The notes beneath the pieces are model-generated. The model searched no databases, had not been told where the DNA came from, and saw only the letters and a list, made by a program, of their open reading frames with translations. From the NCBI GenBank assembly GCA_029245245.1, contig JAQWPT010000033.1, forward strand, positions 124,001 to 188,000: a DNA stretch of 64,000 bases, in the 5' to 3' direction. Shown piece by piece: positions 41,517-45,172 of the stretch (positions are counted from its first letter, which is position 1; each line of letters starts with the position of its first letter). Position numbers and translations under genes: made by a program. This DNA is from Phycisphaerales bacterium. GTDB taxonomy: Bacteria; Planctomycetota; Phycisphaerae; Phycisphaerales; SM1A02.

Positions 41517-42443
41517 TCAGGTCGGCAGCGGAAGGTCTGGCGCGAATCGCCAGGGGCGATCATTCTCCAGGTCGGAGGGGGGAATCAGCGCGTCGCGGAC
41601 GGCGGTGATCAGGTCCGCCATGCCACGGCCGGACAGGGCGCTGACCTGGAGATCCGCATCAAGGTGTTCGCCGGCATCGGCCTTTGTTCCGATGCGGAGA
41701 TCCGGCTTCCGGGGTGTCGTCGGCCAGTCGGTATCGCAGTCGGCCAGTGCCAGCAGCAGGTCCGCGTCTTCCACGAGCCGTTGGGCGACAAGGATGGCTT
41801 CCGCTTCGATGGCATCGCCGCTCTGGCGGATCCCGGGCGTGTCGAACCAGTGCACGACGAGGCCGGCGCATTGAACCTCGGCGGAGATGAAATCCCGTGT
41901 CGTCCCCGGGGCATCGAATGCGATCGCGCGATCCCGGCCGGCCAAGGTGTTGAGGAGCGTGCTCTTGCCGACATTGGGCTGGCCGATCATCACGACCTTC
42001 GGGGGTCGCAGCAGGTGATTCAGGCGTGCGGATCGCTGCTCGTCGTCCCTGGTCCAGTCATCGAGTCGTTCCCAGCGTCGGGGTTGCTGCACCAGCAGGT
42101 CGATGGCCGCGGGTGAAGACGCCGTGGCCAGGGTGCGCAGCATGGCGGCTTCGACCGGGCCCCGTGCTTCAGGGAACCCGTCGATCGGATCCGCGGCGGG
42201 CTGCACGCCGAGTTCCTGGAGCCATGACAGCAGTCGTTGCTGCACGCGGGGGCCGCCGTGGGGCATCAGTTGGGCGGTGTGCGTGTCCAGTCGAACGACC
42301 AGGCAGTCGTCGATCTCACCGGGGGTCGCGCGGCGTACGCAGCCGACGGGCCAGTCCTTCCCGCTGGAGATGGCGGCAAGGATCGGATCGATGTCTCCGG
42401 CTAGCTGGAGAATGGCGATGGCGCCGGGGGCCGGTGCGGTCAT
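41517..42443 (-). CDS. MnmE-like short GTPase
   Basis: The protein has 308 residues. The start MTAPAPGAIAILQLAGD resembles the MnmE (TrmE) N-terminal tetrahydrofolate-binding domain. A helical part follows, then a TrmE-type G domain: GQPNVGKST (P loop), APGTTRDF, DTPGIRQSG, and TKAD. It ends soon after the G domain (about residue 300), without the C-terminal helical half and the CIGKGF-like cysteine motif required for tRNA uridine modification in MnmE. It is thus either a degenerate MnmE or a separate GTPase. MnmG is not nearby. The start at 42443 is 36 bases after the coaX stop. Confidence 0.8.
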   Translation of the reverse strand: MTAPAPGAIAILQLAGDIDPILAAISSGKDWPVGCVRRATPGEIDDCLVVRLDTHTAQLMPHGGPRVQQRLLSWLQELGVQPAADPIDGFPEARGPVEAAMLRTLATASSPAAIDLLVQQPRRWERLDDWTRDDEQRSARLNHLLRPPKVVMIGQPNVGKSTLLNTLAGRDRAIAFDAPGTTRDFISAEVQCAGLVVHWFDTPGIRQSGDAIEAEAILVAQRLVEDADLLLALADCDTDWPTTPRKPDLRIGTKADAGEHLDADLQVSALSGRGMADLITAVRDALIPPSDLENDRPWRFAPDLPLPT

Positions 42444-42479
42444 GGTTCGAACTGTGCAGGGCGAAGGCACGGCAGGCCG

Positions 42480-43283
42480 TCAGAGTTCACCGGCTTCTTC
42501 ATCGGCGGCAAGCACCTGCCGGGCCGATTCGGCGATTCCCTGCAGGGTGAGGTCGGGAACAATCTGCTCAATGAGTTCTTCGTCACTGAAGATGCATTCC
42601 GCGTCACCGCCGGTGGCGATCACCTTGGGGTACGCCCCGTACGTGCTTGCATAGAGTTCGACCAGTTGCCTGGTCATCCCGCGGATGCCGTGGTACACGC
42701 CGTGCAGCATGGCCTGTGTCGTCGATCGACCGAACGGGCCGTCACTGGGCTTGGTGAACTCGATTTCGGGAAGGGCGTCGGTCTCCCGGTGCATCGAGTC
42801 CAACTGCATTCGTGCGCCGGGAGCGATGGCACCGCCATGGAAGGTGCCGGTTCCGTCGATGAAGTCGACCGTGATGCAGGTGCCCGCGTCGATCACGACG
42901 CATGCCTGCTCGACGGTTTTCCAGGCTGCCGTGGCATTGAGGAGCCGGTCCACACCGGTGATGGTCTCGGGGGCCAGATCCTGTGGGATCGGGACGGGGA
43001 GGTCCTTGCCAAGCCGGTAGGGTGCTTCGGACAACTGGTCGGACAGGGTTGAGCCAAGCCGTGTGGCCACCGTGTCGTTGACCGATGCCATGAGCACGGC
43101 CTTCGCCGCCCCATCCGGTGCATCGGGCAGGTAGGGCCACCAGGTCACGACCTGGTCAATGATGCCCGGGAGGTCGTTGTTGCCGAGGGTGACGATATCC
43201 GTGAAGGAGCCGTCCACGAACCGCCCCAACTGGGTGCGGCTGTTTCCGACGTTCATGGCAATCATGTTCATCGCAGTCTGCAT
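42480..43283 (-). CDS. coaX: type III pantothenate kinase
   Basis: Phosphorylates pantothenate, the first committed step to CoA. The 267-residue product has the N-terminal nucleotide motif MNVGNSRTQLGRF, the substrate motif GVDRLLNATAAW, and the catalytic Asp segment VIDAGTCITVDFID. GGAIAPGARMQLDSMHRETDAL matches the family's middle part. The start is uncertain because several Met occur (43283, 43271, 43259) and no Shine-Dalgarno is clear; 43283 is used. It diverges from folD across 68 bases. Confidence 0.9.
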   Translation of the reverse strand: MQTAMNMIAMNVGNSRTQLGRFVDGSFTDIVTLGNNDLPGIIDQVVTWWPYLPDAPDGAAKAVLMASVNDTVATRLGSTLSDQLSEAPYRLGKDLPVPIPQDLAPETITGVDRLLNATAAWKTVEQACVVIDAGTCITVDFIDGTGTFHGGAIAPGARMQLDSMHRETDALPEIEFTKPSDGPFGRSTTQAMLHGVYHGIRGMTRQLVELYASTYGAYPKVIATGGDAECIFSDEELIEQIVPDLTLQGIAESARQVLAADEEAGEL

Positions 43284-43351
43284 GCATGCCAGTGTAGGGC
43301 AACAGGGCATCGCGTGGCCCCGGAGAGAGGGGGAGGGTATCCTGCACCGCC

Positions 43352-44230
43352 ATGACCGAAGCAACCACCGCGAACATCCTCGACGGCAGGGAACTTGCTG
43401 AGCGCGTTCGAGCCAAGCTCGTGTCCAGGATCGAGTCGTTGCGCACGGAGGGCCACGAGGTTCGCCTCGACGCGGTCATCTGCTCAGGAAACGAAGCGGG
43501 CGAGGTCTACGCCGCCAGCCAGGAACGGACCTGCCGGCAGATGGGCATCGACTACCGACTGCATCATCTTTCCGAGGACGTTTCTGAAGGGGCGGTGGTG
43601 GACACCATCGAGGGGCTGAATGCCGACGCCGCGGTGCACGCCATCATGGTCCACATGCCATTGCCGTCACAGGTCCGGTCTGACCTTGTGCAGTCGGCCA
43701 TCGATCCTCGCAAGGATGTCGAGGGAGTCAATCCCGCAAACATCGGCAACGTCATCTACGGTCGGCGGAGCCTCATGCCCTGTACGGCCCTGGCGGCCAT
43801 GACCATGATCGAATCCACTGGTGTCCAATTGCGGGGTCGCGTCGCGGTCTGCGTGGGAGCCAGTCGCATCGTCGGCCGACCGGTCGCGGTGCTCCTGATC
43901 CAGGCGGAAGCGACGGTGATCTCGACCAATGTGCACACCCCGGACCTGGCCGCGATGACGCGTCAGGCCGACGTCGTGATTTCCGCTGCAGGCGTGCCGA
44001 ACCTCGTCACCGGTGACATGATCCAGCCCGGTGCGATCGTGATCGATGTCGGGATCAATCGAGTCAAGGATCCGAAGACCGGGCGCACCCGTACGATGGG
44101 AGACGTGGAGTTCGACAGCGTGTCCCGTGTGGCGGGATGGGTCTCTCCGGTTCCCGGAGGAGTCGGCCCCGTGACTGTGGCCATGCTGCTGCGAAATACG
44201 GTCGAGGCGGCCGAGCGAGCTGCCGGCTGA
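43352..44230 (+). CDS. folD: methylenetetrahydrofolate dehydrogenase/cyclohydrolase (FolD) with altered catalytic residues
   Basis: FolD converts 5,10-methylene- to 10-formyl-tetrahydrofolate. The 292-residue protein has the right length and layout, with the substrate Tyr in EVYAASQERTC, KDVEGVNPANIG, and the NADP part SRIVGRPVAVLL and SPVPGGVGPVTVAMLL. However, the catalytic Lys of E. coli FolD (K54) is Gln57 here, and the Gln in VQLPLP (Q98) is His101 (VHMPLP). The Asp (D121) is kept as D122. Dehydrogenase may remain while cyclohydrolase is reduced or works by another mechanism. Confidence 0.85.
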   Translation: MTEATTANILDGRELAERVRAKLVSRIESLRTEGHEVRLDAVICSGNEAGEVYAASQERTCRQMGIDYRLHHLSEDVSEGAVVDTIEGLNADAAVHAIMVHMPLPSQVRSDLVQSAIDPRKDVEGVNPANIGNVIYGRRSLMPCTALAAMTMIESTGVQLRGRVAVCVGASRIVGRPVAVLLIQAEATVISTNVHTPDLAAMTRQADVVISAAGVPNLVTGDMIQPGAIVIDVGINRVKDPKTGRTRTMGDVEFDSVSRVAGWVSPVPGGVGPVTVAMLLRNTVEAAERAAG

Positions 44231-45172
44231 TCAGTCGAACAGTCGGTGAGCCGCTTCCTGGTACCGCGTGAGCGTGTTGACGATGATCTCATCCGGAAGC
44301 GAGGGGCCCGGAGGCGTCTTGTCCCAGTCTCCCGCGTTGACGAGTGTCAGCAGGTAGTTGCGGACGTACTGCTTGTCAAAGCTGTCCTGGTCACGTCCGA
44401 TCTCGTAGTCCTCGGCAGGCCAGAATCGTGAGCTGTCGGGGGTGAGGATCTCGTCGATCAGGAGCAGTTCATCGGTGCGGTTGCCATCGGCATCGAGGGC
44501 CCATCCGAACTCGAACTTGGTATCGGCGAGAATGATGCCGCGTTCGGCGGCGTGGTCCCTGGCCCAGGAATAGATTCGAATCGAGATCTCCCGCAGGTGT
44601 TCCATCACGTCACGCCCGGCGATCTCGCAGGCTTGTTCGAAGTCGATGTTCTCGTCGTGCCCCTCGACTGCCTTGGTGGCGGGCGTGAAGATCGGTTCCT
44701 CCAGGCGTTGGCACTGCTGGAGTCCTTCGGGCAACGTGATGCCGCAGACGCTGCCATCCCGTTGGTACTCGACCCATCCGGATCCGGTGATGCAGCCGCG
44801 GACGACGAACTCGACGGGAATGACTTCTGCGGCGCGACCGAGCATCATTCGTCCCTCGCACTGCGGATAGTGGGCGAGGTCGAGCCCGGGCACGTCTTCG
44901 GGCCGGGTACTGATGAGGTGATCCTTGATGATGTTCTGTTCGCGGACCTTTTTGAACCATTCGGTGCTGATCCGGGTCAGTTCGCAACCCTTTCCGGGTA
45001 CGGGGTCCGGCATGACCACGTCGAATGCACTGATGCGATCCGAGGCGATGATCAGCACGGCCGGGGGACGCCCGTCGGCGGCAGGGACGTCATAGATGTC
45101 TCGAACCTTGCCTTGGCGTCGGCCAGGCAGGGGAAGATCGGTTTCTCGCACGGCGTGGTGGGTGGTGGTCAT
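44231..45172 (-). CDS. purC: phosphoribosylaminoimidazole-succinocarboxamide synthase
   Basis: SAICAR synthase ligates aspartate to CAIR in purine synthesis. The 313-residue protein has the family signatures: GKVRDIYDV near residue 20, IIASDRISAFDVVM near 40, EGRMMLGRAAEVIPVEFVVRG near 110, GSGWVEYQRDG, and IILADTKFEFGW with the Mg/ATP residues. It is of the longer, single-function type. Its stop directly abuts the folD stop. The start faces the GH10-like gene. Confidence 0.96.
   Translation of the reverse strand: MTTTHHAVRETDLPLPGRRQGKVRDIYDVPAADGRPPAVLIIASDRISAFDVVMPDPVPGKGCELTRISTEWFKKVREQNIIKDHLISTRPEDVPGLDLAHYPQCEGRMMLGRAAEVIPVEFVVRGCITGSGWVEYQRDGSVCGITLPEGLQQCQRLEEPIFTPATKAVEGHDENIDFEQACEIAGRDVMEHLREISIRIYSWARDHAAERGIILADTKFEFGWALDADGNRTDELLLIDEILTPDSSRFWPAEDYEIGRDQDSFDKQYVRNYLLTLVNAGDWDKTPPGPSLPDEIIVNTLTRYQEAAHRLFD

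Follow-up and report, generated by a model that had tools for sequence, protein, structure and literature searches.

The FolD-family protein encoded at 43352..44230 of the window, i.e., the whole 64,000-nucleotide stretch of DNA analyzed here, is probably a methylene-tetrahydrofolate (methylene-THF) dehydrogenase whose cyclohydrolase activity was lost or never present and which is paired with a separate FchA-type enzyme of the FTCD_C family. We infer these activities and this division of labor from the sequence, from mutants described in the literature and from the genes present. All three canonical residues of FolD (Lys54, Gln98 and Asp121 in the E. coli enzyme) differ in the window protein, and in nearly all planctomycetes whose FolD lacks the Lys, a separate gene probably performs the second FolD reaction. 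It appears that, phylum-wide, the two-in-one FolD has been divided into two enzymes.

The folD Gene and Its Active Site

The gene, its domains and the active-site residues are located as follows in the window.

43352..44230, + strand: folD-family coding sequence, 292 amino acids, Gln/His/Glu active-site type (translation, Pfam, AlphaFold2, Foldseek)
43379..43723, + strand: PF00763 substrate/catalytic domain, residues 10-124 (Pfam)
43733..44221, + strand: PF02882 NAD(P)-binding domain, residues 128-290 (Pfam)
43508..43510, + strand: Tyr53, the retained folate-stacking Tyr, equivalent to E. coli Tyr50 (alignment)
43520..43522, + strand: Gln57 (CAG) where E. coli has Lys54, the YxxxK-motif residue of the cyclohydrolase (alignment; invariant in 27 relatives)
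43652..43654, + strand: His101 (CAC) in place of E. coli Gln98 (alignment; invariant in 27 relatives)
43721..43723, + strand: Glu124 (GAG) in place of E. coli Asp121, the pterin-binding carboxylate, giving KDVEG instead of KDVDG (alignment; invariant in 27 relatives)

The reading frame is intact, and membership of the FolD family is indicated by the two Pfam domains, which score well above their gathering cut-offs (PF00763, E=4.9e-29, 101.4 bits against 32.8; PF02882, E=1.7e-58, 196.9 bits against 27), and by the fold of the AlphaFold2 model (pLDDT 93.8), for which the top Foldseek matches are FolD/MTHFD structures with TM ~0.9. Bifunctional FolDs (E. coli, PDB 1B0A/5O28; the DC domain of human MTHFD1) share with the window protein this fold, both domains, the folate-stacking Tyr, the PCT and PVPGGVGP motifs and the length; identity to E. 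coli FolD is ~38%, and most of the nucleotide-binding loop is retained. The differences are K54Q, Q98H, D121E, S65Y, P143A and G145A, the last three falling at further positions that distinguish the two types, with Lys-less FolDs having Tyr or Phe for Ser65 and Ala for both Pro143 and Gly145. The NCBIfam subfamily and equivalog cut-offs for bifunctional FolD are also missed by the window protein, as all 25 models listed score below them (best, 301.9 bits against 421).

A sequence-only reading had described this FolD as lacking two of its three catalytic residues, with Asp122 as the retained Asp. Alignment with E. coli FolD upholds the two replacements, placing Gln57 (and not a Lys from elsewhere) opposite Lys54 and His101 opposite Gln98, but not the retained Asp: Asp122 falls opposite E. 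coli Asp119, where KDVDG has its first Asp, whereas the catalytic Asp121 is the second, and its true match is Glu124.

Residue 193 (43928-43930) is Asn, where a His that contributes to binding of the 2'-phosphate of NADP is usual; Asn193 is invariant in 27 relatives and hints at a possible difference in cofactor (NAD vs NADP). The gene lies between coaX and purC (42480-45172), both on the opposite strand, and the stop codons of purC and folD are immediately adjacent; this order is preserved in several relatives. A short MnmE-like GTPase (317 amino acids) is encoded at 41517-42470 on the minus strand; Pfam recognizes only its GTPase domain, with no match to the folate-binding or C-terminal domains of MnmE.

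One-Carbon Genes of the Genome

A genome search found this FolD as the only one, and neither Fhs (formate-THF ligase) nor FTCD_N was found in the genome. The users of 10-formyl-THF are present (PurH, PurN, PurU and Fmt), as is a gene for a candidate partner enzyme.

G000:C3:9967-10569 (genome of the window): stand-alone FTCD_C (PF04961) protein, FchA-like, 200 amino acids, 3 bases after pheT

The pheT-FTCD_C arrangement is preserved in several genomes of family f1. The FTCD_C protein matches the structure of Methylobacterium extorquens FchA (7VG4, E=2e-13) as well as FTCD structures, and keeps the PGGG, D..KLP and N..SD motifs; its score of 78.5 bits with the FchA equivalog of NCBIfam is under the cut-off of 275. 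Since the genome is without FTCD_N, this protein is not a histidine-degradation FTCD, and a stand-alone PF04961 protein of ~200 amino acids in such a genome is what is expected of an FchA partner. A search for FchA and Fhs genes, which had been proposed as a check, found the former type and not the latter, and the absence of Lys in the sole FolD coincides with a separate putative cyclohydrolase gene, as expected for a monofunctional dehydrogenase that works like Mtd1.

Distribution of the Two FolD Types in Planctomycetota

The catalytic residues of FolD are described as strictly conserved (PMC3338484), and no description of a FolD type with the present residues in Planctomycetes was found in the literature. 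Within the order of the window, Gln/His/Glu occurs in all 41 FolDs read from families f1-f4, barring the second FolD of two genomes, while those read from f5 and f6 carry the usual Lys/Gln/Asp triad. When 138 Planctomycetota genomes (at least 90% complete) were sampled without bias and searched with the family model PF00763, 134 FolDs were read, with residues 54 and 121 being Lys/Asp (K/D) in 65, Gln/Glu (Q/E) in 60, Ile/Asp in 3, Leu/Asp in 1, Ile/Glu in 2, Ala/Glu in 2 and Thr/Glu in 1; Lys/Glu and Gln/Asp combinations were absent among the 134. A DNA pattern for KDVEG was also used to pick FolDs across many families of the phylum, and although this selects on the Asp-to-Glu change only, none of the 61 FolDs so obtained has Lys and 58 have Gln at position 54. 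Because Gln/His/Glu is invariant in the 41 FolDs of the order and Gln54/Glu121 recurs in 60 of the 134 of the phylum, these residues in the window FolD are not due to chance, which answers the question whether other planctomycetes share them.

Position 98 behaves differently in the two types: it is Gln in 65/65 Lys-type FolDs of the phylum sample, whereas it varies among Q, H, S, T, A, I, L, Y, F, M and V in the Lys-less ones.

Some genomes depart from this simple division. Two (G003 and G019) hold both types, the second, normal Lys/Gln/Asp FolDs (L072 and L074) adjoining an FTCD_C-containing protein; these genomes carry another FTCD_C gene elsewhere, besides the Gln/His/Glu FolD. In L330, L333, L334 and L338 (families f48 and f68), Lys is replaced by Ile or Leu with Gln98 and Asp121 kept, and all four genomes have FTCD_C.

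Co-Occurrence of Lys-Less FolD and FTCD_C

Within the order, FTCD_C was found in 98/98 genomes of f1-f4 (one below the cut-off) and in 0/53 of f5-f6. When FTCD_C alone was counted at the phylum scale (290/392 genomes), its link to FolD type looked weak, because many genomes with Lys-type FolD carry FTCD for histidine degradation; splitting the genomes by FTCD_N resolved this. In the 138-genome sample, FTCD_C is present in 56/58 genomes with only Q/E FolD vs 33/63 with K/D, and FTCD_N accompanies it in 32 of these 33, so that most K/D genomes with FTCD_C are accounted for by histidine degradation. Among genomes without FTCD_N, the contrast becomes 18/19 (Q/E) vs 1/30 (K/D), with a Fisher p=3e-11 that ignores phylogeny; counted by family it is 8/8 vs 1/14 (p=2.8e-5, likewise ignoring phylogeny). 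In the lone K/D exception, G187, the FTCD_C match lies 340 bases from the contig start, where an adjoining FTCD_N could be cut off. The contrast is mirrored within family f17, in which G216 has K/D without FTCD_C and four others have Q/E with FTCD_C. In other bacteria, sampled broadly, FTCD_C occurs in 5/43 genomes with Lys-type and 6/7 with non-Lys FolD. The sole non-Lys exception there is a genome of the SAR324 cluster, outside Planctomycetota, with a Gln/Gln/Glu FolD (L102) and no FTCD_C found.

Phylogeny of Lys-Less FolDs

In a quick tree built without the three residue columns, Lys and non-Lys FolDs are split by one branch (SH-aLRT 99), and a careful tree, computed from 80 rows after removal of six columns, has two changes between Lys and non-Lys, although support for the deep branch is weak (54/93). 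The one (quick) or two (careful) changes compare with ~26-52 in shuffles, and repeated point changes are on this count rejected as the origin of Gln/His/Glu; the trees indicate that Lys-less FolDs are an old, separate lineage and not scattered mutations. A wider scenario, which we regard as tentative and rather doubtful, is that the Lys-less, Glu-bearing FolDs are ancient, phylum-wide monofunctional dehydrogenases, possibly ancestral or sister to bifunctional FolD, that are paired with FTCD_C and naturally insensitive to carolacton, and that fungal Mtd1 descends from or parallels them.

Two FolDs of family f26 (L341 and L343, in genomes G330 and G342), with Ala/Tyr/Glu or Ala/Phe/Glu, show the residue pattern of yeast Mtd1 (Thr/Tyr/Glu) and are much nearer to Mtd1 than the window FolD is; L343 matches yeast Mtd1 (1EDZ) with E=6e-47, well above any bifunctional FolD. 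On these similarities, L341 and L343 are possible bacterial relatives, or a possible source, of fungal MTD1.

Proposed Function and Alternative Explanations

In the proposed pathway, the window FolD, which retains the fold and Tyr53 and has Glu124 as its pterin-binding carboxylate, would oxidize 5,10-methylene-THF to 5,10-methenyl-THF. As the Lys54/Gln98 pair is absent, methenyl-THF would not be hydrolyzed efficiently by this enzyme, and its hydrolysis would be performed by the FchA-type FTCD_C protein encoded after pheT; the 10-formyl-THF so made would feed PurN, PurH, Fmt and PurU. That the two proteins work like Mtd1 plus FchA is a prediction. In M. extorquens, the dehydrogenase (MtdA) and the cyclohydrolase (FchA) also reside on separate proteins. 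MtdA belongs to a dehydrogenase family different from FolD, whereas in the present genome the dehydrogenase would be FolD itself. Alignment of Saccharomyces Mtd1 (1EDZ) gives Thr/Tyr/Glu at the three positions; like the window FolD it lacks the Lys, has Glu for Asp121 (KDVEG) and has Gln98 replaced, but it differs in having Thr and Tyr instead of Gln and His and in its low overall identity. Titles referenced in PMC6443876 and PMC11064299 call yeast Mtd1 a monofunctional dehydrogenase that depends on NAD.

Mutants of E. coli FolD provide the closest experimental comparison. K54N has no detectable cyclohydrolase and ~19% dehydrogenase activity, and Q98H retains ~1% and ~8%, respectively (PMC5688156). 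These carolacton-resistance mutants (Q98H, PDB 5O2A) carry the same or a similar change as the window FolD at two of the three positions; unlike it, they are impaired enzymes with single laboratory mutations and Asp121 kept, while the window FolD represents a conserved natural type. Asp121 binds the pterin (PMC3338484), and its mutation in E. coli is quoted in PMC6443876 as reducing kcat/Km for the substrate to 0.17%. The earlier suggestion of a dehydrogenase-only FolD with a separate cyclohydrolase is therefore well supported as a prediction, given the FchA-like FTCD_C gene, a single FolD, no Fhs, the phylum-wide tracking of FTCD_C, and the loss of cyclohydrolase with partial dehydrogenase in K54N and Q98H. 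Several points count against it: methenyl-THF also hydrolyzes spontaneously (PMC5688156), the FTCD_C protein misses the FchA cut-off, the Lys/non-Lys split amounts to only one or two tree events, 38 of the Q/E genomes also have FTCD_N, and the SAR324 genome is an exception. Moreover, K53A and Q97A of Bombyx mori MTHFD keep cyclohydrolase in vitro (PMC6443876), so that loss of the Lys need not abolish this activity.

The Bombyx K53A result also favors the best-surviving alternative, namely, that the window FolD is still bifunctional through an alternative Gln57/His101/Glu124 site (e.g., with His101 as general base) and that FTCD_C has another role. Full conservation of the three residues within the clade and the invariance of the His101 equivalent in f1-f4 agree with such a site. 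However, residue 98 is unconstrained in other Gln/Glu FolDs, the E. coli substitutions leave ~1% (Q98H) or no (K54N) cyclohydrolase, and the strict co-occurrence with FTCD_C would be left unexplained; we therefore consider this alternative improbable. The His-based mechanism that had been offered as a second option for this protein is unlikely for the same reason, the variability of position 98 in the Lys-less lineage, together with the ~1% of Q98H.

Less probable still, and very unlikely, is that Lys-less FolDs chiefly use a different substrate, such as a modified folate or some other pterin, or work in the reductive direction alone, with Glu124 reshaping pterin binding and cyclohydrolase activity being irrelevant. 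The pterin-binding Asp is always Glu when Lys is replaced by Gln, and the changes at S65, P143 and G145 also mark the Lys-less type; on the other side, the window protein is the sole FolD of a genome that needs 10-formyl-THF for PurN, PurH and Fmt and is without Fhs, and Mtd1, with the same Glu, uses THF. A pseudoenzyme, sequencing error or misalignment has practically no chance of being correct and is already refuted by conservation, as no supporting point was found, the frame is intact and confidently modeled, the same residues occur in dozens of independent assemblies, and the protein is the sole FolD in most such genomes.

Significance

In the NCBIfam models matched by the window protein, FolD carries the name bifunctional. 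If the dehydrogenase-only assignment is true, genome annotations and metabolic models of planctomycetes with Lys-less FolD would be wrong at the 10-formyl-THF step, and these FolDs are predicted to be insensitive to carolacton, a FolD inhibitor that contacts Lys54. Published mutants are at odds on the roles of the residues (human and E. coli vs Bombyx), and the natural switch between K/D and Q/E, with position 98 freed in the absence of Lys, constitutes an evolutionary dissection of the cyclohydrolase and dehydrogenase residues. Under the same assignment, about half of Planctomycetota would make 10-formyl-THF by a split system.
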